From assembly GCA_013695905.1 (NCBI GenBank), contig JACCZQ010000303.1, positions 1 through 11,704 on the forward strand: DNA of 11,704 nt, written 5' to 3'. The translations under genes and the position numbers were made by a program. The DNA is from Chthoniobacterales bacterium (lineage in GTDB: Bacteria; Verrucomicrobiota; Verrucomicrobiia; Chthoniobacterales; UBA10450). Below the pieces are notes generated by a model. That model saw nothing but the letters and a program-made list of their open reading frames with translations, had not been told where the DNA came from and ran no database searches. Positions 144 through 11,704 of the stretch are shown piece after piece; the stretch's first letter is position 1, and each line of letters opens with the position of its first letter.

Positions 144-3029
144 GTGCCTACGAAAAAGCAGATCGACCGTTTTTCTTTCCCGCTGGCCGCGCTGCTGGCG
201 TTTTTTACTGCAGTCTCTGCTCTTTCCGCCGCGCCCGGTGCAGTCGATCTGAGCTTCGACGCGGGACCGGGGCCGATACATGTCTGGCCAGGGGAGGGGA
301 CCGGAGTGTTGCTTCAGCCCGATGGGAAAATCATCGTCGGCGGGAATTTCAACGGCTGGAACCTGACGGAGGTGGCGCCGATCGTCCGACTGCAGGCGGA
401 CGGATCTCTGGACACCTCCTTCGAATCGTGGACCGTCGGCTTCGAGGGCACCAACCAGAGCGGCAGCGGTGCATGGAATGCGCTGGCGCTGCAGCCGAAC
501 GGCCAGGTTTTGGTCGCGCCGGGGCAATTCAATAACCGCTACGGCCCGCGTGCGCTGCTCCGGCTCGAGGCGAACGGGCATCTCGATGCCACGTTCAACC
601 CGCAGTTCGCCAGTAATCAGACCCCGCGCGTCCGGCAGGCGGTCGTGTTAGGCGACGGACGCATTCTTGTCGCGGGAAACTTTACCACCATCAACGGCAT
701 CTCCCGGCCCCTTCTGGCGCGGTTAAATGCCGACGGCAGCGTCGACCAAAGCTTTACCGCGGCGGAGGCTGGCCCCTTCCGGGTCCTGCCCAGCGGGAAG
801 ATCATCGTGAGCGTCGGCGCGGCGTTCTACCGCCTGCACAGCGACGGCAGCCGTGATCCTTCTTTCGTGGGGGCGGTGCCGGGAAATCCCTACAATGGCC
901 AGATCGGGTCGTTCGTGGTGCAGGCGGACGAGCGGATCGTTTATGCGCAGAGACTCGATTTTTTCGGCACCGACGCGGTGCGGCGTCTGCAGGCGAATGG
1001 CTCGAACGATGCGAGCTTCGCCACCTTCTCCGGGCAGTTCATCAATGTGCAGCTGGTGCAAAGCGACAAAAAGATTCTGATTAGCGGGGGCCGGCTGAAT
1101 CACGACGGAACTCCGGACCCGAGCTTTGATTGGAGAGCCGGCGGGGACACCATGGCGCAGCAAAGCGACGGCAGGCTGGTCACGACGAGCCGGTTCAACG
1201 CTCCACCGCACGGGGTGCGGAGACTGCTGCTCGACGGGTCGGTTGATCCGAGTTTCGCGCCCGGCGCCGGGTTGACGCTCATGATGCCGCAGAATATCGA
1301 GCGCGCCTGCCTTTTGCCGGATGGTCGGGTGGCCGTCGCCGGCCGGTTCAATCATTTCGCCGGGGTGCCGCGCAATAGTGTCGCAGTCCTTCAGCGCGAC
1401 GGCACGGTCGATCCCGCTTTTGATCCTGGAGATTCCATTGTGCCTTCGAGTAATAGCGGTCACTTCATGGGTGCGATCGTGGCACAGCCAGATGGGAAAG
1501 TTCTCGTCGCTTTCGAAAACAAGCTGGTGCGGCTGGAAGCGGACGGCAGCGCGGACGCCACTTTCAATTACACACCAGCACAGACGACCTATGCCTACGT
1601 CACGAGCGTGGCAGTGCAGCCCGACCGAAAAATTCTTGTTTACGGTCCGGATGGGTTGGTGCGCCTTTTTCCGGACGGGTCCCGCGATCCCTCCTTCCAG
1701 GCGGCGCAGAACGGGCCGGTGCTGTTCGTCGAGCCGGATGGGAAGGTGATGGTTCGCGGAGGCCCGCGGGTCGCGACACGGTTGCATCCCGATGGCGCGC
1801 TGGATGCGGAATTTCAGGGGCCAGGGGGAGCCGCCGGTTTGGTCGTTCTGCACGCGATGGCCTTGCAACCGAACGGTCAGTATCTCATCAGCCACTCGGA
1901 ACCGTCGAACTTTCGCGACGCTTTTGTGAGGCTGAACCGTGACGGCTCGGTTGATCCAGGTTTCGCTGCGAACGTCGCGTCAGTGAAGTTGATCGCGATG
2001 GATGCCGATGGAATCATCGTGGGCGGCAACATCGCTCCGCGAACCGACGTGACCTCGCAGCAGGTGCAGCTCGGCGTGGCGCGGCTCAGGTTCGACGGCA
2101 CACGGGACAACACCTTCCGGCCGGTGGAATTTAATTCCGAGGCCAGCCTTAGCGCTCTCCTGCCGACGTCTGGCGGGCAGCTGTTCGTGACCGGGAATTT
2201 CCGTCAGGTCAATGGGCTGGAGCGCCGCGGCATCGCGCGAATCTCGACGCGACCGGCGCCAGATCAGCTCGCCAATCTCTCCACCCGCGCCCGGCTCGCG
2301 GCGGAGGAACCGGTGGCGATTGGCGGGTTCATCATCACGGGCGACGAGCCGAAAACAATCATGGTGCGCGCGCTGGGTCCCTCGCTTTCGACGCGCGGCA
2401 TCGCTGCGGCTGAGACGCTCGCGGATCCTTCACTGCAGCTGCACGATGGCACGGGCGCGATGTTTCTCCGGAACGACAACTGGCGGGACACGGATGGAGC
2501 ACGCATCGCCGCGACCGGTTTGGCGCCGGCCAGCGACCTGGAGGCAGCCATCGTAACCGCTCTCCCGCCGGGAGCCTATACTGCCGTGGTGCAGGGCGGC
2601 CAGGGGCTGGCGCTGGTGGAGATTTACGATCTCGCGACAGGGGTCACCGCGCAGCTGGCGAACATCAGCACGCGCGCGCGGGTGCAGCAGGGCGACAACG
2701 TGATGATCGGCGGTTTCATCCTTGGGGGGAGGGTGCCTTCCACCGTCGTGGTCCGCGCCATCGGACCTTCGCTGGCCGCGCGTGGAGTGGCCGATCCATT
2801 AGCCAACCCGACGCTCACCTTGCACGATCAATCAGGGAACGCGCTGGCCTCGAACGATGACTGGCGGGAAGGCGAGCCGGCGAGGATCGAAGGTTACGGC
2901 CTGGGCTCGCTGGATGACCGGGAGTCCGCTCTGATCGCGACGCTGCCGCCGGGACCGTACACCGCTATCGTGCGTAGCGCGGGTGAGCAGCAGGGTGTTG
3001 CCCTGGTGGAAGTTTACCAGGTGGAATAG
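144..3029 (+). CDS. Secreted delta-60-repeat (DUF5122-type) beta-propeller-like protein
   Basis: A 961-residue protein of unknown function, probably exported. Residues 1-30 form a Sec signal peptide: Lys4-Lys5, then a hydrophobic stretch (FPLAALLAFFTAVSALSA) with probable cleavage near Ala29/Ala30. Residues about 32-707 hold around 14 degenerate copies of a unit marked by D-G-S-x-D-x-S-F, alternating with 'QPDGKIIVGGNF'-like strands. This is the delta-60 repeat, which is thought to fold as beta-propeller blades. Residues 708-836 and 837-961 are two copies of a domain with a 'LANxSTRAR', 'GGFI' and 'VRAxGPSL' signature. No C-terminal membrane anchor or sorting signal is visible. The start is GTG: an in-frame TAA lies 12 bases upstream and the signal peptide begins directly after it. 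It ends 23 bases from the convergent amidohydrolase gene. The family match is firm; the function (cell-surface or extracellular binding) is inference. Confidence 0.9.
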   Translation: MPTKKQIDRFSFPLAALLAFFTAVSALSAAPGAVDLSFDAGPGPIHVWPGEGTGVLLQPDGKIIVGGNFNGWNLTEVAPIVRLQADGSLDTSFESWTVGFEGTNQSGSGAWNALALQPNGQVLVAPGQFNNRYGPRALLRLEANGHLDATFNPQFASNQTPRVRQAVVLGDGRILVAGNFTTINGISRPLLARLNADGSVDQSFTAAEAGPFRVLPSGKIIVSVGAAFYRLHSDGSRDPSFVGAVPGNPYNGQIGSFVVQADERIVYAQRLDFFGTDAVRRLQANGSNDASFATFSGQFINVQLVQSDKKILISGGRLNHDGTPDPSFDWRAGGDTMAQQSDGRLVTTSRFNAPPHGVRRLLLDGSVDPSFAPGAGLTLMMPQNIERACLLPDGRVAVAGRFNHFAGVPRNSVAVLQRDGTVDPAFDPGDSIVPSSNSGHFMGAIVAQPDGKVLVAFENKLVRLEADGSADATFNYTPAQTTYAYVTSVAVQPDRKILVYGPDGLVRLFPDGSRDPSFQAAQNGPVLFVEPDGKVMVRGGPRVATRLHPDGALDAEFQGPGGAAGLVVLHAMALQPNGQYLISHSEPSNFRDAFVRLNRDGSVDPGFAANVASVKLIAMDADGIIVGGNIAPRTDVTSQQVQLGVARLRFDGTRDNTFRPVEFNSEASLSALLPTSGGQLFVTGNFRQVNGLERRGIARISTRPAPDQLANLSTRARLAAEEPVAIGGFIITGDEPKTIMVRALGPSLSTRGIAAAETLADPSLQLHDGTGAMFLRNDNWRDTDGARIAATGLAPASDLEAAIVTALPPGAYTAVVQGGQGLALVEIYDLATGVTAQLANISTRARVQQGDNVMIGGFILGGRVPSTVVVRAIGPSLAARGVADPLANPTLTLHDQSGNALASNDDWREGEPARIEGYGLGSLDDRESALIATLPPGPYTAIVRSAGEQQGVALVEVYQVE
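237..2264 (+). repeat. Array of about 14 delta-60 repeats (protein level)
   Basis: Seen by eye in the translation: recurring motifs such as DLSFDAG, DGSLDTSF, NGHLDATF, DGSVDQSF, DGSRDPSF, NGSNDASF, DGTPDPSF, DGSVDPSF, DGTVDPAF, DGSADATF, DGSRDPSF, DGALDAEF, DGSVDPGF and DGTRDNTF. They are spaced roughly 35-65 residues apart. Spacing is uneven, so some units are longer or decayed. The DNA of the copies is diverged, which suggests an old array rather than recent expansion. Confidence 0.8.
2265..2651 (+). repeat. C-terminal duplicated domain, copy 1 (residues 708-836)
   Basis: Begins QLANLSTRAR and contains GGFIITG, VRALGPSL, DNWRD, LPPGAYTAVV and ALVEIYD. It aligns along its whole length with the next copy, so it is a tandem domain duplication of about 125-129 residues. 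The pattern is one I associate with the C-terminal ends of secreted Verrucomicrobiota proteins; no function is known to me. Confidence 0.8.
2652..3026 (+). repeat. C-terminal duplicated domain, copy 2 (residues 837-961)
   Basis: Begins QLANISTRAR and contains GGFILGG, VRAIGPSL, NDDWREGE, LPPGPYTAIV and ALVEVYQ, matching the preceding copy in order and spacing. The gene ends one codon after this domain, so the domain is the natural carboxyl terminus and not a truncation. It may serve in attachment, export or folding; this is inference. Confidence 0.8.
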
Positions 3030-3052: not shown

Positions 3053-4390
3053 CTACTTCTTCATCAGGTCCAGGACAGCCGCCGTCATCGCAATAACCCC
3101 GGTGCGGATCGTCGGCTCCGGGACCGGGGCGTATTTGCTCGAGTGCAGGGATGGTAGTTCGGCGCCGGTTTTTCTGGCCTCAGCGATTTTGGCGGGCGCG
3201 ATCGCGCCGACCCAGAAGATGACGGCGGGGACGGAGTGATCCGGCAGGCTGTACTCGCTGAAATCTTCGCCGGCCATGACAGGGTCCATCGTCTCGACGT
3301 TCTCGGCGCCGAGGGTCTGACGCCAGACACCGAGGAGCCGCTTCGTCAGCTCGGGGTTGTTAAAGGCGGAGGGGGTGAATTCATCCTGTCGGACGTGAAC
3401 CACTGGCATCCGGTCGGGCGGCATTCCGGCGGTGGTGGCGCAGCCTTTCGCGATGCGCTCAATCGCGGCGAGGATCTGGTCGCGCACTTCCTTTTTATAG
3501 GTGCGGACGGTGAGCTGCATCTTCACTTCATCGGAGATGATGTTGTGCTTCGTGCCGCCGTGGATCGAGCCGACGGTGACCACCATTGACTCCAGCGGGT
3601 TTACTTCGCGGCTGGCGATGGTTTGCCAGCTGTTCACCATCTGCGCCGCGAGCACGATCGGGTCTTTGGTCTTGTGCGGGTAAGCGCCGTGGCCGCTGAT
3701 GCCGGGCACGCTCACGTCCACGGAATCGACGTTCGCAAAAGTGTAGCCCTCGGTGACGCCGATGCGGCCTGTTTCCAGTGCAGCGCTGCTGTGGAGGCCG
3801 AGGACGAAGTCTGGTTTCGGAAAGCGCGTGTAAAGGCCGTCGGCGAGGAGTGCCTTCGCGCCGGTGCCGATTTCCTCCGCCGGCTGGCCGACGAACACGA
3901 TCGTGCCTTTCCAGTGATCCTTCAGCTTCACGAGCGCGCGCGCGGTGCCGATGAACGAGGACATGTGGATGTCGTGTCCGCACGCGTGCATGGTGCTGAC
4001 TTCCTTTCCTTCGTCATTCTGCTGCGTGTCTTTGCTGGCGTAGGGGAGGCCGGTCTCTTCGGCGACAGGCAGGCCGTCGAGGTCGGTGCGGACGAGAACC
4101 GTGGGGCCGTCACCGTTCTTCAGCACGGAGACGACGCCGTAGCTGGTGGCGCCGGGCTTCTTGTATTTGCCTACCTTTTCCGTCACCTCGAGGCCAAGGG
4201 CGCGGAGTTCCTTGGCGATGACGGCGGCGGTTTTCTCTTCCTTTCCGGAGAGTTCCGGATGCGCGTGGAGTTCTTTATAGATGGCCACGAGCGACGGCAG
4301 CTCGGCGTCGGCAATCTGTTGGGGAGTTTGTTGCGCGAAAAGTGGAACAGCACAGACAGTGAGGAGAAGCGGGAGAACGCGGGGATTCAT
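3053..4390 (-). CDS. Exported M20-family amidohydrolase (amidohydrolase/hippurate hydrolase type)
   Basis: A 445-residue zinc metallohydrolase of the M20D amidohydrolase group, which removes acyl groups from N-acyl amino acids or related amides. The exact substrate cannot be read from sequence. An N-terminal signal peptide (residues 1-20, MNPRVLPLLLTVCAVPLFAQ) points to export; Val before Cys13 argues against a lipobox. Metal-binding and catalytic residues are present: Cys137 and His139 in HACGHD, Glu172-Glu173 in GQPAEEIGTGA, His200 in GLHS, and His416 in PSLHSSKYAP. Asp103 in VRTDLDGLPV is part of the typical core. The dimerisation domain (about 215-330) carries SGHGAYPH. Length is slightly above the family norm because of the signal peptide. 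It starts at an ATG with only a weak AGG upstream; TATAAC on the minus strand (4402-4397) could be a -10 box very close to the start, giving a nearly leaderless mRNA. It converges on the delta-60 gene. Confidence 0.93.
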   Translation of the reverse strand: MNPRVLPLLLTVCAVPLFAQQTPQQIADAELPSLVAIYKELHAHPELSGKEEKTAAVIAKELRALGLEVTEKVGKYKKPGATSYGVVSVLKNGDGPTVLVRTDLDGLPVAEETGLPYASKDTQQNDEGKEVSTMHACGHDIHMSSFIGTARALVKLKDHWKGTIVFVGQPAEEIGTGAKALLADGLYTRFPKPDFVLGLHSSAALETGRIGVTEGYTFANVDSVDVSVPGISGHGAYPHKTKDPIVLAAQMVNSWQTIASREVNPLESMVVTVGSIHGGTKHNIISDEVKMQLTVRTYKKEVRDQILAAIERIAKGCATTAGMPPDRMPVVHVRQDEFTPSAFNNPELTKRLLGVWRQTLGAENVETMDPVMAGEDFSEYSLPDHSVPAVIFWVGAIAPAKIAEARKTGAELPSLHSSKYAPVPEPTIRTGVIAMTAAVLDLMKK

Positions 4391-4664: not shown

Positions 4665-5336
4665 CTACTTCTTGCGCGTGTAGCTGATCTCCATCGTCTT
4701 CGCTTCCGCGCCGTGCATGTCGTCGTACCACTCGAAGGTGTGATGGTCGTTATCGACGATTTTTATGACTTCGCGGATGTTCGTCGTCTTCCCCGGCATC
4801 ATCTGGCATTGCGCGTTGTAATTAAACGTCTTGCTCGCCGCGTCGTAGGTGCCTTCCGCGTTCATGATCATGGTGCTCATGTTGTCGATCCACGAGGAGA
4901 CAAATTTCTTTTTCGCATTGTCATAGCCTTCAATCGCCATGCCTTTGAAATCCATGTCTTTCATTTTTCCGTCCGGGCCCGGCATTTGGAACTTACCGGT
5001 GTGCTCCGCGATAAAGTAACGGCCGTCCATGATCGCCTTCCGTGTGGACGTGCCTTTTGACTCTTGCGGCGGGGCCTTCGGATCCATCCACATCTTCAGT
5101 GTGTAAGTCCAGTCGCCGGCCATGCTCGCGAGCACCTTGTGATTTTCGCCGGTCTTCCCCATCTCCATCATCATGGCCATCATCTGCTGCATGTCGGGCG
5201 CGCCGGGCTGAGCAGCCGCTCCCGCGGTGGCGGGACTGCTGGCAGGCGAAGAGGCAGTGGTTTGCGCGAACAAGGAGGTCGCGGTGAGAGTGGCCGCACA
5301 GACGGCCGCCAGCAGGTAAATGAGGGGGTTCTTCAT
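4665..5336 (-). CDS. Exported DUF1579-family protein
   Basis: A 223-residue protein of the DUF1579 family, for which I know no established function. A Sec signal peptide is clear (MKNPLIYLLAAVCAATLTATSLFAQ), followed by a low-complexity Ala/Ser/Pro-rich linker (about residues 26-45). A short Met-rich stretch (MQQMMAMMMEMGK) precedes the folded domain. The domain then shows the family pattern: an AGDWTYTLKMW strand, a DGRYF motif, FKGMAIEGYDNAKKKF, SSWIDNMSTMIMNAEG and a C-terminal HTFEWYDDMHG...MEISYTRK. Such folds resemble small beta-barrel or lipocalin-like ligand carriers, but that is inference. I chose the ATG at 5336 and not the TTG 21 bases upstream at 5357, because the signal peptide starts cleanly at MKN; no Shine-Dalgarno sequence decides it. 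The spacing makes co-transcription with the amidohydrolase uncertain. Confidence 0.88.
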   Translation of the reverse strand: MKNPLIYLLAAVCAATLTATSLFAQTTASSPASSPATAGAAAQPGAPDMQQMMAMMMEMGKTGENHKVLASMAGDWTYTLKMWMDPKAPPQESKGTSTRKAIMDGRYFIAEHTGKFQMPGPDGKMKDMDFKGMAIEGYDNAKKKFVSSWIDNMSTMIMNAEGTYDAASKTFNYNAQCQMMPGKTTNIREVIKIVDNDHHTFEWYDDMHGAEAKTMEISYTRKK

Positions 5337-5394: not shown

Positions 5395-5483
5395 CATCCA
5401 CAGATTTCACAGATTTTGAATCCGAGAGAAGTGGTCCCCAGCCACCACCTTCCCATCCGTGAAATCTGTGTAATCTGTGGATG
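5395..5483. repeat. Long palindromic repeat (CACAGATTT family) upstream of a polymerase-head remnant
   Basis: Arms of 22 bases at 5395-5416 and 5462-5483 are reverse complements with one mismatch, built of CACAGATTT-like units. The 45-base middle holds a second small stem, GTGGT at 5431-5435 with ACCAC at 5444-5448. The element could extrude as a cruciform or fold into a long hairpin in RNA. Its right arm ends 3 bases before the ATG of a polymerase remnant. The same arrangement is found at 10596-10668, in front of the intact polymerase. Repeats of this type are common between genes in Verrucomicrobiota genomes. Confidence 0.85.
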
Positions 5484-5486
5484 CTC

Positions 5487-5585
5487 ATGCGCTTTGAAGA
5501 AAACACGATGCTGTTCGGGTCCGATCCGACGCCGCGCATCGTTCTTTTGTCATTCCGAGCGAAGTCGAGGAATCTCTCGCTGTGA
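5487..5585 (+). pseudogene. Short remnant of the family-B DNA polymerase 5' end (19 codons)
   Basis: The frame from the ATG at 5487 reads MRFEENTMLFGSDPTPRIV and matches the first 19 residues of the polymerase gene at 10674 with one change (Met for Ile at residue 8). The DNA is also clearly similar. Homology stops at about 5543, where a dispersed repeat begins; that repeat supplies the rest of the frame (LLSFRAKSRNLSL) and the stop codon TGA at 5583-5585. It is therefore a truncated gene head and not a real small gene. Its TGA overlaps the GTG of the next remnant (GTGA), as in coupled genes; this may be chance. Confidence 0.8.
5543..5580 (+). repeat. Dispersed 'CATTCCGAGCGAAGTCGAGG' repeat
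   Basis: The core at 5551-5576 is an imperfect palindrome with outer arms ATTCC and GGAAT. When translated, such repeats give peptides like SFRAKSRNLS or HSERSRGIS in predicted proteins of many environmental bacteria, which is how I recognise it. It carries no gene and interrupts the first polymerase remnant. The left boundary is approximate. Confidence 0.7.
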
Positions 5586-5839
5586 GTTTTCAGGACAACG
5601 AGCTTCTCTTCGGCGCAGACAAGACCGCGCGCATCGTCGTGATCGAGATGGGCGACACCGGCACGGTAAAGGTTTACCGCCGCGAGGAGAACGGCGCCAC
5701 CGCGTGCGACATTGAGCCGTTTCACCCCTTCGTCTGGGCTGACTCCGACGTGGCTGATCTCGGCATGGACAACGCGGGCGTTCATGCCGCGGCGAGACGC
5801 ATTCGGTTTTGGAATGGCGCGAGCGCGATCGGCGATTGA
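5582..5839 (+). pseudogene. Longer remnant of the family-B DNA polymerase 5' end (about 65 codons)
   Basis: The open frame from GTG 5582 encodes 85 residues. Residues 1-65 match residues 1-65 of the polymerase gene at 10674, at about 52 of 65 positions by eye. The match includes IEMGDTGTVKVYRRE, CDIEPFHPFVWADSD and VADLGMDNA. At base 5777 all similarity ends abruptly; the remaining 20 residues (GVHAAARRIRFWNGASAIGD) resemble nothing I know. Divergence is concentrated in the first 45 codons, and the last 49 bases before the junction (5729-5777) differ from 10821-10869 at one position. The exonuclease and polymerase domains are missing, so no enzyme can be made. The frame has no internal stop, so the loss is recent or the peptide is tolerated. 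It sits 44 bases upstream of aceB. Confidence 0.85.
5729..5777 (+). repeat. Left copy of a near-identical direct repeat flanking aceBAK
   Basis: These 49 bases match 10821-10869 with a single C/T difference at 5743/10835; the last 34 (5744-5777) are identical. All similarity ends at 5777. The block lies inside polymerase codons 50-65, at the right end of the longer remnant. It is the best candidate for a recombination crossover site. Confidence 0.85.
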
Positions 5840-5883
5840 TGCGCGCGGGTGAGGAGCGGGCGACGAATCGTTAGCGGCGCCTC

Positions 5884-7494
5884 ATGGACACAACTTCTCG
5901 CATCCAAACCCCTGACGGCGTTGAGCTAACCAGCGAAGTCACCGCCGCTGTGAGGGAGATTCTGACGCCGGAGGCGCTGGCGTTTATCGCCAAACTGCAG
6001 CGGGCGCTCGGTGCGCGTCGCGTGGAATGTCTCGAGCGGCGGCAAGTACGCCAGGCGGCGCTCCATCGCGGCGAAATGCTCGACTTTCTCCCGGAGACGA
6101 AGGAGATCCGCGACGGCGATTGGACATGCGCGCCGATCCCGGCGGATCTGCGTGATCGGCGCGTTGAGATCACCGGACCGACTGATCGCAAAATGGTGAT
6201 CAACGCGCTGAACTCCGGCGCGAAGATGTTCATGGCGGATTTCGAGGACGCGAATTCGCCCGTGTGGTCGAACATGATCGAAGGGCAGGTGAACCTGCGC
6301 GACGCGATCCGCCGCACGATCACGTTCACAAATCCGAACGGTAAGGAATACAAGCTCAACGATCAGGTCGCCGTTCTACTCGTTAGGCCCCGCGGCTGGC
6401 ACTTGGTCGAGAAACATCTGCTGGTCGATGGCGCGCCGATGTCCGGCAGCCTTTTCGATTTCGGGCTCTTCTTTTTTCACAACGCGAAGGAGCTGATCGC
6501 CTGCGGCAGCGGCCCGTATTTTTACCTGCCGAAGATGGAGAGCCATCTGGAGGCGCGGATCTGGAACGATGCCTTCAAGCTCGCGCAGGATGAGCTCGGG
6601 ATTCCGCAGGGGACGATTCGCGCGACCGTGTTGATCGAGACGATTCCGGCGGCGTTCGAGATGGACGAAATCCTTTACGAATTGCGCGACCATTCCGCGG
6701 GGCTGAACTGCGGCCGCTGGGATTACATTTTCTCGTGCATCAAGCGGTTTCGGAACAAACCCGATTTCGTGCTCGCAGACCGCGCGTTGATCACGATGAC
6801 GACGCACTTCATGCGCTCGTACTCGCTGCTCTGTATTAAGACGTGCCATCGCCGCAACATCTTCGCGATGGGCGGAATGGCGGCGCAGATTCCGGTGAAA
6901 GAGGATGCGGCGGCGAACGAAGAGGCGTTCGCGAAAGTGCGCACCGATAAGGAACGCGAGGCGCGCGACGGCCACGACGGCACGTGGGTCGCGCATCCCG
7001 GCATGGTTCAACTCGCGCTCGATGCCTTTAACGCGGTCATGCCGCAGCCCAACCAAATCGATTGCAAACGCGAGGACGTGAATGTCACCGCGGCTGACCT
7101 GCTCGACTTCGGACCGGGCGAGCCGATCACCGAGGCGGGCTTGCGCCAGAACATCAGCGTGGGCGTGCAATACTTGGAGGCGTGGCTGCGAGGAAATGGC
7201 GCGGTGCCGCTCTTCAATTTGATGGAAGACGCCGCGACGGCGGAGATCTCGCGCGCGCAGGTCTGGCAATGGATTCGCCATCCGCGCGGCGTGCTGACGG
7301 ATGGCCGCAAGGTGACGAGCGAACTCTTCCGCAGCGTCCTCGATGAAGAGCTGGCGAAGATCAAAACGCAGGCGGGCGAGCAGCGATTTGGCGCCGGGAA
7401 ATTCGACATCGCGCGCGAGTTGTTTGACCAGATCACGACGGACGACGAGTTCGTCGAGTTCCTGACGCTGCCCGGATACGATAAGCTGAACTAA
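5884..7494 (+). CDS. aceB: Malate synthase A
   Basis: Condenses glyoxylate with acetyl-CoA to malate and CoA, the second step of the glyoxylate shunt; cytosolic and Mg-dependent. At 536 residues it fits the short A form (about 530) and not the 720-residue G form. Expected residues are present: Arg168 in LLVRPRGWH (catalytic arginine), [13 protein letters not shown] at 216-228, Glu252 in [18 protein letters not shown] and Asp280 in GRWDYIFS (Mg ligands), and the catalytic base Asp449 in [13 protein letters not shown]. The C-terminal [10 protein letters not shown] is also typical. An in-frame TAG at 5872-5874 makes ATG 5884 the first possible ATG; no Shine-Dalgarno sequence is seen, and the GAGGAG at about 5851 is too far away. 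It is first gene of aceBAK, with 7 bases to aceA. Its upstream DNA consists of polymerase remnants, so its promoter may derive from them. Confidence 0.97.
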
Positions 7495-7501
7495 CTCAAC
7501 T

Positions 7502-8815
7502 ATGAAAACAGAGAGCAACAACGGCGACTCCGCCGCAGAGACAAATCGCCTCGGAGCGAAAGCAACCATGAGGGATTGGGCGAACGACTCGCGCTGGGAC
7601 GGCATCGAACGCACCTACTCGTTAGAAGACGTCCGGCGATTGCAAGGGACGGTGGTTCCCGAGCACACGCTGGCGCGTCGCGGCGCCGAGAAGCTGTGGG
7701 AGTTGCTCCACACGGAAGCGTTCGTGCCGGCGCTCGGCGCGCTCACGGGTAACCAGGCGGTGCAGCAGGTACGCGCCGGCTTAAAGGCGATTTACCTGAG
7801 CGGATGGCAGGTCGCGGCGGACGCGAATCTCGCCGGGCAGATGTATCCCGACCAGAGCTTGTATCCGGCTAACAGCGTGCCGGCAGTCGTAAAGCGCATC
7901 AATCAGGCGCTGCAGCGCGCGGATCAGATCACGCACGCTGAGGGCAAGCACGACATCGATTGGTTCGCGCCGATCGTCGCCGACGCGGAAGCGGGATTCG
8001 GCGGCCCGCTGAATGTCTTCGAATTGGTTAAAGCGATGATCGAAGCTGGTGCGGCCGGCGTTCATCTCGAAGACCAACTCGCGAGCGAAAAGAAGTGCGG
8101 TCACATGGGCGGCAAAGTTCTCGTGCCGACCCGCACCGCGATCAATAATCTCATCGCGGGCCGTCTCGCTGCGGATATTTCCGGTGTGCCGACGATCATC
8201 ATCGCGCGGACCGATGCCGGCGGCGCGGCGCTTCTCACGAGCGATGTGGACGAGCGCGATCAGGCGTTCATTTCGGGCGAGCGCACGGTCGAAGGGTTTT
8301 ATCATGTGCGCGCGGGGATCGAGCAGGCGATCTCGCGTGGCCTGAGTTACGCGCCTTCCGCGGACATGATCTGGGTCGAGACTGCGAAGCCCGATCTCGC
8401 GGAAGCGAAGCAATTCGCGGAGGCGATTCATGGTCGATTTCCTGGAAAGCTGCTCGCTTACAACTGTTCGCCCTCGTTCAACTGGCGCGCGAAGCTCGAC
8501 GAAGCGACGATTGCGAAGTTTCAGCGCGAGCTCGGCGCGATGGGTTACAAATTCCAGTTCGTCACGCTGGCGGGATTCCACGCGCTCAACTACAGCATGT
8601 TTACCCTCGCGCGCGGTTATCGCGATCGCGGTATGGCCGCCTACTCGGAGCTGCAGCAAGCGGAGTTCGCCGCGGAGAAGGACGGCTACACTGCGACGAA
8701 ACATCAGCGCGAAGTCGGCACCGGGTACTTCGATGATGTCGCGCAGGTCATCATGGCTGGCGAATGCTCGACCGGCGCGCTGCAAGGTTCGACCGAGCAA
8801 GAGCAGTTTCATTGA
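7502..8815 (+). CDS. aceA: Isocitrate lyase
   Basis: Splits isocitrate into succinate and glyoxylate, the first step of the glyoxylate shunt, which lets cells grow on acetate or fatty acids without losing both carbons as CO2. At 437 residues it has the length of the bacterial enzyme (about 430). The catalytic cysteine Cys199 lies in the signature KKCGHMGGK (197-205). A metal-binding Asp161 is in [23 protein letters not shown] precedes the active loop, NCSPSFNW (321-328) forms the substrate pocket, and the C-terminal STEQEQFH corresponds to the lid segment that closes the active site. ATG 7502 lies 7 bases after the aceB stop, without a strong ribosome site, so translation is probably coupled. 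The aceK start overlaps its stop codon. Confidence 0.97.
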
Positions 8816-10575
8816 ACGAGACGGTTTCGCCTGCCGCGCCGGCGCTCACCGATAGCCGGCTCGCTGCGCTCTGCGCGGAGGAAGCCCGGAACGCGCTCGA
8901 TGACTACGCGGCGCGTTTCGATGAGATCACTCGGCGCGGGCGCGATCGCTTTCTCGCGCGCGACTGGCGCGGCAGCTACGACGACGCGGCCGAGCGGCTG
9001 CATCTCTACTCGCGGGTCCTCGATAGCCTAACGAATACAATCAAAGGCTTGCTGGCCGCGCGTCTTTGCGATCGCGGAATCTGGAGCGCCATCAAAGCCG
9101 TCTACTCGGCGCTGATTGGGCACTCGTCGCGCTGGGAAATTGGCGAAAGTTTTTTCAACTCGCTGACCCGTCGCATCTTCACGACCGAAGGTGTCGATCA
9201 GGCAATCGAATTCGTCGACACCGACTTCGACGCTCCGCCGACCAGCGTCGGCGCGAATGTAGGCCGCATTTACTCCGGAGCGCCTCTGCGCGAGTTGCTC
9301 CAGCGGGTGTTGACCGACGCAGAAGCGGGCGGGTTCGCCGAGAGTTGCTGGAACGATCTGCCGGGTTCGCTCGCAGCCGCCGCAGAGCGGCTCACCCACG
9401 CGATCGGCCAGAGCGGCGAGGCGAAGCTCGAGCTGGTCGGCGCGACATTCTACCGCGGGCGCGGCGCATATCTCGTCGGACGCGTCTGCCCGACCGATGA
9501 TGCCGCAAGCGTTGTGCCGGTCGCATTTTGCATGAGGCATACCGATCAGCGCGGGATAGTGCTTGATGCGCTGCTCGTCGGCGAAGCAGACCTCGCGATT
9601 CTATTTTCCTACACGCGCGCGTATTTCCGCGTCGACGCGCCATGTCCGTTCGCCCTCGTCCGTTGGCTCCGCGAGTTGATGCCGCGCAAAAGTATTGCCG
9701 ATCTCTACAATGCGATCGGCTACAACCGGCATGCGAAAACCGAGTTCTACCGCGATTTCGTGCGGCACCTTCAGCACTCGAGCGATCACTTCGTCACCGC
9801 GGAAGGAACGCGCGGCATGGTGATGCTCGTGTTCACGCTGCCGAGTTACGACGCCGTCTTCAAACTCATCCGCGACCGATTCGACGCACCGAAAAACAGC
9901 GATCGCCGCGAGGTGATGAGCAAATACAAGATGGTGTTCGAGCACGACCGCGCGGGCCGGCTGGTGGAGGCGCACGAGTTTGAGCACCTGCGCATTGCGC
10001 GAGATCGCTTTGATCCGGCGCTGCTCGATGAGCTCCTGCGGAGCACGGGTGCGACGGTCCGGCTGGACGGCGATGATGTGGTGATTGCGCACGCGTACGT
10101 CGAGCGGCGGGTGCGCCCGTTGAATCTCTTCTTCGCGGAGTGTGATGCCGACGAGGCGTCGGCGGCGGCATGTGGCTACGCGGAGGCGATCAAGGACCTC
10201 GCGGCGTCGAACATTTTCGCCGGCGATTTGTTAACGAAGAACTTCGGCGTGACGCGTCACGGGCGCGTGGTGTTTTACGACTACGACGAGCTTTGCTGGC
10301 TCACGGACTGCAATTTCCGCGAGATGCCGCAATCGACGAGCTACGAGGAAGAGATGGCTGCGGAGCCGTGGTTCACCGTGCGCGACAACGACATTTTTCC
10401 CGAGGAATTTCCGAACTTCCTCGCCTTTCCTGAGCGCGCGCAGCAGGAGCTGTTCAGGCGGCACGGCGACTTGTTTCACCCGGACTTCTGGCGCGGCGTG
10501 CAACAAAAGCTACGTGCAGGTGAGCTGCCGGAGCTGTTGCCGTACGCACAGGAGCGGAGGCTCGGCGCAAGCTAA
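8812..10575 (+). CDS. aceK: Isocitrate dehydrogenase kinase/phosphatase
   Basis: A bifunctional regulator that phosphorylates isocitrate dehydrogenase to switch it off, sending isocitrate into the glyoxylate shunt, and dephosphorylates it to restore the TCA cycle. From the TTG at 8812 the protein has 587 residues, close to the 578 of E. coli AceK. This TTG overlaps the aceA stop (TTGA), a 4-base overlap typical of coupled genes; an in-frame ATG at 8764 lies inside aceA and is rejected. The N-terminal half (about 1-300) is the AceK regulatory domain. The kinase-like part shows [31 protein letters not shown] with Lys351 as the probable ATP-binding lysine, then [23 protein letters not shown] with Asp472, Asp490 and Asp492 in catalytic and metal positions. 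All look intact. Its target, isocitrate dehydrogenase, is not encoded here. Confidence 0.96.
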
Positions 10576-10595
10576 GCGAGCGCCGGCGTCGTTCG

Positions 10596-10668
10596 CGCAG
10601 ATTTCGCAGAGTGACGCAGATTTTTCGGACCCGTTTCAGCGAATCTGCGGAATCTGTGTAATCTGCGG
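10596..10668. repeat. Palindromic repeat (CGCAGATTT family) directly upstream of the DNA polymerase gene
   Basis: The left arm (10596-10623) consists of three CGCAGATTT-like units and the right arm (10641-10668) of three units in reverse orientation; the arms pair imperfectly around a 17-base loop. The right arm ends 5 bases before the polymerase ATG. The 98-base spacer after aceK is almost wholly this element. It may act as a terminator-like or RNA-stabilising hairpin for aceBAK, or shape polymerase expression; it has no T-tract that would make it a classical terminator. It belongs to the same type as the palindrome at 5395-5483, but the arm sequences differ. Confidence 0.8.
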
Positions 10669-10673
10669 ACGCA

Positions 10674-11704
10674 ATGCGTTTCGAGGAAAACACCATCCTC
10701 TTCGGCTCGGATCCGACGCCGCGGATTGTCGCGATCGAGATGGGCGACACGGGAACCGTGAAGGTTTATCGGCGGGAGCAGGACGGCAGCACGGTGTGCG
10801 ACATCGAGCCGTTCCACCCGTTCGTCTGGGCTGATTCCGACGTGGCTGATCTCGGCATGGACAACGCGGAGAAACTCGCCGGTGACCTGAAGTTCAACTG
10901 GCTCGTGACCGTAAATAGCTGGAAGGAGCTGATCGCGCTGCGCAACGGGCTGAAGAACGCCGGACGCACCTTCTTCGCGCTCACCGATCCGGTGCAGCAC
11001 TACCTCACGCACACCGGGCGGACATTGTTCAAGGACCTCCGACCCGAGGAGCTGAAGCGACTCCAGATCGAGGTGCTGTCGTTCTGCGGCGTGGATCGCG
11101 ACCTGCCGGACGCCTCCACGCCCGAGGATCACTTCATGAGCATCGCGCTCGCCGACAACAGCGGGTGGGAAGAGCTGATCGTCGTCGATATCGCGAACGT
11201 TGAGGAATCCGAACGCGCTGCGCTCAAGCGCCTGACGAGCATCATCAAGGAGCGCGACCCCGACGTCATTGAGGGCCACAACCTCTTCAAGTTCGACCTG
11301 CCGTATCTCGTCGCCCGCGCGCGCAAGGCGAAGGTGAAGCTCGATTGGGGGCGCAGCGGCGGCTTCCTGCGTTCGCGGCCGTCGCGGCTCCAGATCGCGG
11401 AGAAGACGATCGATTACCCGAAGTTCACCGTTGATGGGCGGCACTTCGTCGACACCTTCCTGCTCGCACAATTCTACGATGTCGGCATGCGCAGCCTCTC
11501 CGGCTTCGAGCGCACCGATGTCGCCCAGCATTTCAGCCTCACGAGTGAAGCCGACATCTCGCAGCTCGGCGGTAAGGAACTGCAGCGCGCCTACTCCGAG
11601 GACGCGGAGCGCTTCCGCCGCCGCGCCCTCTGCGCCGTGCGCGAGACGCGCGCCGTCGCCGATCTCCTGAGCCCTAGCTACTTCATCCAGGCGCAGATTT
11701 TCCC
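10674..11704 (+). CDS. Family-B DNA polymerase, N-terminal part (gene continues past the window)
   Basis: The frame stays open for 343 codons to the window edge and covers the N-terminal domain and 3'-5' exonuclease domain of a bacterial family-B polymerase (COG0417 type); the polymerase domain lies beyond. Recognisable parts are the head LFGSDPTPRIVAIEMGD, HTGRTLFKDLRPEELKRLQ just before ExoI, VIEGHNLFKFDLPYL as ExoII with Asn203 and Asp208, VDTFLLAQFYDV, and RETRAVADLLSPSYFIQAQIF after ExoIII. ExoI, normally D-I-E, reads IEVLSF here, and ExoIII, normally Tyr-x3-Asp, reads RALCA. Proofreading is therefore probably weak or absent, while the fold is kept. The start is the ATG at 10674, 5 bases after the palindrome, with no Shine-Dalgarno sequence. 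Two broken copies of its 5' end lie upstream of aceB. The polymerase could serve in repair or translesion synthesis; that is inference. Confidence 0.88.
   Translation, partial: MRFEENTILFGSDPTPRIVAIEMGDTGTVKVYRREQDGSTVCDIEPFHPFVWADSDVADLGMDNAEKLAGDLKFNWLVTVNSWKELIALRNGLKNAGRTFFALTDPVQHYLTHTGRTLFKDLRPEELKRLQIEVLSFCGVDRDLPDASTPEDHFMSIALADNSGWEELIVVDIANVEESERAALKRLTSIIKERDPDVIEGHNLFKFDLPYLVARARKAKVKLDWGRSGGFLRSRPSRLQIAEKTIDYPKFTVDGRHFVDTFLLAQFYDVGMRSLSGFERTDVAQHFSLTSEADISQLGGKELQRAYSEDAERFRRRALCAVRETRAVADLLSPSYFIQAQIF
10821..10869 (+). repeat. Right copy of a near-identical direct repeat flanking aceBAK
   Basis: The partner of 5729-5777, with one mismatch in 49 bases, inside the intact polymerase gene at codons 50-65. 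After 10869 the polymerase continues normally, whereas the left copy runs into unrelated DNA. The two copies are in direct orientation 5.1 kb apart, so homologous recombination between them would delete or excise aceBAK as a circle. Confidence 0.85.

Follow-up and report, generated by a model that had tools for sequence, protein, structure and literature searches.

A probable scar of gene exchange in the gap between an M20 peptidase gene and a family-B DNA polymerase gene in an uncultured soil Chthoniobacterales bacterium

Introduction

In homology-facilitated illegitimate recombination (HFIR), one joint is homologous and the other is formed without extended homology; the accessible text of PMC3240628 reports the process in Streptococcus pneumoniae, Acinetobacter baylyi and Pseudomonas stutzeri. 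HFIR is reported to be less frequent than ordinary recombination by orders of magnitude, and it is one proposed explanation of how T6SS effector-immunity modules of Vibrio cholerae displace one another in series (PMC5361080).

Here we describe a locus from a Chthoniobacterales bacterium whose form is the one that HFIR during DNA uptake would be expected to leave. The locus occupies a contig of 11,704 nt (the window; that is, the whole stretch of DNA analysed), in which the glyoxylate-shunt operon aceBAK is bracketed by 5' ends of one polymerase gene. We read it as a plain trace of exchanged DNA and not as novel machinery: the mechanism is already known and the scar is unusual. No report of this locus was found among the papers listed on HFIR, Udaeobacter genomes and transformation, and no paper was found on aceBAK in Verrucomicrobia. 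On balance, we favour a history in which insertions into the polymerase gene replaced its head, the second of two such events being the better supported and the first a weak proposal.

Gene Content of the Window

The window is one entire contig of a soil-bacterium draft metagenome assembly (561 contigs, 76.7% complete). Based on Pfam matches, it encodes a DUF5122 protein (144-3029, plus strand), the resident M20 peptidase (3053..4390, minus strand; PF01546/PF07687), which is the usual divergent neighbour of polB, and a DUF1579 protein (4665..5336, minus strand; PF07617), the extra gene of the M20-polB gap in this genome. These are followed on the plus strand by genes for malate synthase (aceB, 5884..7494; PF01274), isocitrate lyase (aceA, 7502..8815; PF00463) and isocitrate dehydrogenase kinase/phosphatase (aceK, 8764..10575; PF06315, PF20423); the aceK coordinates are those of the open reading frame from its first start codon, which overlaps aceA. 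The last gene, polB (10674..11704, plus strand), encodes a family-B DNA polymerase with a PF03104 exonuclease domain, and its frame is open up to the contig end, where the gene is incomplete. A first-pass annotation of the sequence had seen no integrase or transposase, and a Pfam scan agrees, with no such recombinase domain in any of the eight larger window proteins, which are the ones scanned. No tRNA was found in the window, and no Rfam family matched at gathering score across it, so that an RNA element reading was dropped.

Polymerase Heads Flanking aceBAK

The polB 5' end, or head, is present three times in the window, always on the plus strand. Stump A (5487..5542) comprises polB codons 1-19 (56 nt, codon 19 being incomplete) and is 82% alike to head C, the head of the working gene; stump B (5582..5777) comprises codons 1-65 and is 81% alike to head C over the repeat. 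Both stumps are open frames, and they are 66% alike to one another. The first-pass annotation had described a palindrome and polymerase head before aceB and again after aceK, and the repeat search confirms the arrangement: a direct repeat of 200 nt (5578-5777 and 10670-10869, 81% identical, spacing 5092) places aceBAK between stump B and head C (codons 1-65 at 10674-10869).

The sharp edge that had been noted at 5777/10869 is also real. Stump B and head C are 80% identical over 65 codons at the protein level, which corresponds to the 13 changes previously counted, and they differ at 37 of 196 nt, with 36 of these differences in nt 1-147 and, as had been claimed, a single one in the last 49 nt (Fisher p 0.0002 for the clustering); over 34 bases at the repeat end the match is exact. 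Head comparisons used 69 distinct relatives' heads, of which 19 qualified by register to give 51 pairs of similar divergence in nt 57-147, and none of these 51 pairs is as alike as B and C over nt 148-196 (minimum two differences). When the comparison is narrowed to nt 148-180 and widened to the full set of 69 heads, one difference or fewer is seen in 14 of 704 pairs. The near-identical tract is therefore unusual, but not unique.

All ten differences between stump A and head C fall at third codon positions (p 1.7e-5), as do 11 of the 17 differences between stump B and head C in nt 57-147 (p 0.008). Judged by this pattern, the heads are alleles, not decayed copies; the stumps most likely acquired their differences while part of functional genes and were cut off only later. 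A recent in-place duplication of the current head, which the annotation had named as one of the findings that would overturn an insertion, was rejected: the A-C differences are confined to third positions, and those between B and C lie almost entirely upstream of nt 148. Differences mainly at third codon positions resemble those of separate working alleles.

Each head has a leader. Stump A is preceded by a palindrome (5395..5484; arms 5395-5416 and 5462-5483, 95% complementary), an arm of which is dispersed, with five places in the window genome at up to three mismatches (two of them off this contig), and which lies within 60 nt upstream of the polB head in 14/69 distinct relatives' heads. The leader of head C (10599..10672, an extent judged by eye) is related to this palindrome, and its bases 10651-10671 correspond to the dispersed arm except at two positions. 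Head B is led by an arm of a second dispersed repeat (5548..5577, plus strand) of the TTGTCATTCCGAGCGAAGTCGAGGAATCTCT type, which has at least 19 further places in the window genome and often stands directly before the polB start of relatives (10/69 forward, 16/69 reverse).

Neighborhood of polB in Relatives

The named relatives are mostly Chthoniobacterales, Spartobacteria, Verrucomicrobia or Candidatus Udaeobacter. The commonest layout among the 80 named loci is an empty site, with M20 on the minus strand lying divergently within 500 bp of polB on the plus strand (51/80). The remaining loci have M20 further off (3), no upstream M20 (18, many of these being distant relatives), no polymerase 5' end (4), or aceBAK exactly between M20 and polB without stumps (4). 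The first-pass annotation had anticipated an empty site with the polymerase directly downstream of the DUF1579 gene; an empty site does exist, but the usual neighbour there is M20, and DUF1579 is on a different contig from polB in all 26 relatives that have both (contig names compared by hand). It had also held that aceBAK beside the polymerase without a remnant throughout the relatives would argue against insertion. This arrangement was found only in the minority of four filled loci, which show where the block belongs rather than refute its insertion. In G003, a member of the window's genus, M20 adjoins aceB on one contig and aceK lies ~5 kb upstream of polB on another, and we infer that the two contigs join into one M20-aceBAK-polB locus. 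The M20-aceBAK-polB layout exists elsewhere without stumps.

None of the 163 relative loci that have a head (235 loci scanned, redundant) contains a second polB head, in a scan that was run without merging close matches and that recovered all three window heads as its control. A search of the family matched 69 of 83 genomes and returned short extra heads only in the window genome; a further contig of G063, and likewise of G072, holds a second full head, and in G034 the gene is split over contig ends. Several of the 87 protein matches to the stump B frame have non-aligning tails, P0007, P0027, P0050, P0059, P0064, P0078 and P0082 among them, and others look like frameshifts or contig ends. At the protein level, P0050, P0064, P0078 and P0082 consist of a polymerase start followed, after 52-118 residues, by a non-aligning tail, and are possibly other head-capture scars or frameshifts.

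Other extra DNA is also found in the M20-polB gap. Members of g10 (L061 and L066, corresponding to G030 and G036) carry ~1.4 kb upstream of polB or aceB, which may be larC-like, and L181 and L186 carry 7.7-7.9 kb. Upstream of aceB in L208, the M20 gene is in pieces beside an M20-aceBAK-polB layout.

Left Edge of the aceBAK Block

The proposed second inserted block (5778..10869, plus strand; 5092 bp) is delimited by the repeat spacing, the spacer alignment and the open frame that is obtained once it is excised. It contains the start of a lost M20 gene, a spacer, aceBAK, a palindromic leader and a new polB head. Comparison of M20 starts shows that a second M20 gene begins at the edge of the block, with 5778..5785 (minus strand) being the reverse complement of its start; these 8 bases recur at the M20 start of G003, G004, G012 and G020, and the window genome's own M20 differs. 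The spacer from the lost M20 gene to aceB follows at 5786..5883, and 5778-5883 aligns end to end with the M20-aceB spacer of G003 at a score of 34.5; none of 500 mononucleotide shuffles scored above 10, and none of 3873 pieces taken from other loci above 16. Because its left edge is an M20 start with this spacer, the block derives from a different M20-aceBAK-polB locus, of which it is the aceBAK side, severed at the M20 start.

The left joint brings unrelated sequences together, with polB codon 65 fused to the M20 start and aceB spacer. Short microhomology is typical of an illegitimate joint in HFIR. The motif AACGCGG is common to polB codons 63-65 and the window genome's own M20 start, and is absent from the starts of G003, G004, G012 and G020. 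An 85-aa frame spanning the codon-65 joint belongs to a protein cluster with two members on two contigs, which are perhaps not independent.

Origin of aceBAK

A tree was built from 27 aceB proteins. The ten M20-linked sequences, which come from six genera, all fall inside one clade of 13 (support 100/97), and the window aceB is sister to that of G003 within the M20-linked clade. G016, G013 and G019 are members of the clade of 13 without M20 linkage, and G001, G005 and G006, which belong to the window's genus and have aceB elsewhere, group in a different aceB clade (support 98/96). The M20-linked label requires two changes on the tree, compared to a mean of 8.4 when shuffled (0/500 as low), the label being based on M20 alone, without established polB adjacency, in G007, G015 and G024; M20 and aceB are separated by ~1.4 kb in G015, G024 and G030. 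On this tree, aceB kinship tracks place more than genus. The pattern fits an old lineage with many independent losses, or a cassette that is swapped through its flanking genes, and the tree favours neither. A plasmid origin of the block was rejected on the basis of a distant-mode plasmid search, in which 101 records matched with 60-80% identity but not one of them extended over 80% of the block; the eight plasmid records that were detailed match aceB/aceA only.

A Possible Earlier Insertion at Stump A

The annotation had proposed a single insertion, and had underweighted stump A and the M20 left edge; there were probably two insertions, and the case for the first is far weaker. The proposed first inserted block (5543..5637, plus strand; 95 bp) would comprise a half-repeat leader, a GTG start and the first codons of another polB. 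The five best matches to head B nt 1-57 are heads of genus g3, and one g3 head (L163/L206) has the same leader arm and GTG start as head B; beyond nt 57 its closest match is G004, which shares the window's genus. Residues 5, 7 and 14 of head B are g3-like and residues 23, 25, 57 and 58 are g1-like, and the end of stump A at nt 56 coincides with this change in the affinity of head B. A nucleotide test of the g3 affinity of the first codons of head B was not significant (p 0.15). Stumps A and B end in 10 identical bases, which prove little because these bases are equal in 60 of 507 divergent pairs. Excision of both 5543-5637 and 5778-10869 yields a single open polymerase frame of 343 codons; over its first 180 nt, this rejoined gene beats stump B against relatives in 6/6 comparisons, and head C beats the rejoined gene against the same six relatives (6/6). 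These affinities are suggestive of a composite head B that arose from an earlier insertion.

Proposed History and Alternatives

The starting layout would be a resident M20 gene (minus strand) beside polB (plus strand). In the earlier event, a polB front of ~95 bp from another genus would have entered the gene close to codon 19, with stump A as its leftover. In the later event, a chromosome fragment with the M20-aceBAK-polB layout, starting at the donor M20 start, would have entered the resident polB, with its right joint formed by recombination with the resident gene around codon 49 and its left joint by illegitimate joining to resident codon 65. The outcome would be the gain of aceBAK with its upstream region, a polB with a new leader and head C, and a leftover stump B. 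In both events, a left joint without extended homology and a nearby right joint at homologous codons would lie inside polB. The resident segment that these two joints enclose would end up present twice, and it is because of this duplication that each stump would end identical, or nearly identical, to the next head. We infer this direction and order of events, with DNA uptake as the route and illegitimate joining on the left. The empty site, the M20 start and the allele-like heads support the annotation's proposal of an incoming block that supplied a fresh 5' end and cut off the previous one; the circle that it also proposed is possible, but not required.

The 49-nt near-identical tract of B and C lies at the right joint, yet head C shows no switch of affinity near nt 147 and stays close to G004 through nt 334. 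The reported rarity of HFIR also weighs against this history. Separate trees were built to see whether the working polymerase is composite, and they are not decisive. In the tree of polB codons 1-110, the remaining 31 family members form a clade with weak support, and the window stands outside it together with G004 and G001; in the tree of codons 111-343, its placement is unresolved, near G005 and g6 members. The window genome encodes homologs of comEC and dprA, which permit DNA uptake but are common, being present also in 10/14 and 11/14 control genomes, respectively; the accessible text of PMC7343977 has no match for competence or transformation.

A somewhat unlikely variant is that a 5.1-kb circle, carrying the M20 start, aceBAK and polB codons 1-65, entered the resident polB by one crossover within codons 49-65. 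If such a circle had formed in an M20-aceBAK-polB cell, its entry would yield an identical product, 49-nt tract included, and the AACGCGG found in the own M20 start and in polB codons 63-65 is a possible circle-closing microhomology. However, an extra step of circle formation is required, no circle or plasmid form was seen and no plasmid record covers 80% of the block, and a circle alone leaves stump A unexplained. Slightly more doubtful is the mirror image of the proposed history, in which aceBAK-polB with head C was resident and a fragment carrying M20, DUF1579, stump A and stump B came in; this fragment would have paired on the left in M20 or beyond and been joined illegitimately at the resident M20 start, which it would have replaced. 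The arrangement of G003, from the same genus, with M20 beside aceB and aceK upstream of polB, is consistent with such a resident, as is the constant affinity of head C around nt 147, but the 49-nt tract would need a further conversion to be explained. Because both explain that tract, the history stated above, or its circle variant, is preferred over the mirror image.

According to the accessible text of PMC3784515, merodiploidy most often takes the form of a tandem duplication, and one extending from polB codon 65 to the M20 start of an M20-aceBAK-polB genome, with subsequent loss of the left aceBAK, would account for the codon-65/M20-start joint without foreign DNA. We consider this very improbable: it predicts that B and C were initially the same, but 37 of 196 sites differ, concentrated in nt 1-147, and the M20 remnant differs from the window genome's M20 start. 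An assembly artefact, whether two strains joined in the contig or a misresolved repeat, could be imagined in a draft metagenome assembly of 561 contigs with 34 exactly shared bases at the repeat end, but is scarcely credible, as a repeat misjoin would not make the codon-65/M20-start or stump A/B joints, and the frame across the former is in the two-member cluster on two contigs (perhaps not independent).

If the head-replacing history is right, the locus would provide a natural, sequence-level example of uncultured soil Verrucomicrobia gaining a metabolic operon without mobile-element enzymes, and stranded 5' stumps could be used to order past exchanges. More tentatively, the M20-polB gap may be a recombinase-free exchange site in this soil family, where an aceBAK cassette with M20 and polB homology arms crosses genera; pairing of one arm would swap the front of the gene and leave a stump as a record. 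With an aceB lineage tied to one site in six genera, this idea is open to comparative test.

Comparison With Known Systems

As HFIR is described in the accessible text of PMC3240628, the window locus would share with it one homologous joint, another without extended homology, and foreign DNA trapped beside a homologous anchor. Unlike those cases, the locus is only a fossil in an uncultured genome, and its joints lie within ~50 bp of each other in one gene, so that the gene survives with a new head. The T6SS modules of V. cholerae likewise involve successive insertions at a conserved stretch, with remnants of earlier residents (PMC5361080); in that system, as far as the same accessible text describes it, effectors were displaced and orphan immunity genes are kept downstream, where they may be useful, whereas the stranded polymerase 5' ends of the window serve no apparent purpose, and it is a metabolic operon that was carried in. 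In the merodiploids of S. pneumoniae, DNA uptake also makes new joints and partial duplications; however, the accessible part of PMC3784515 describes the duplication of long resident segments between repeats, whereas the repeated heads of the window are different alleles.
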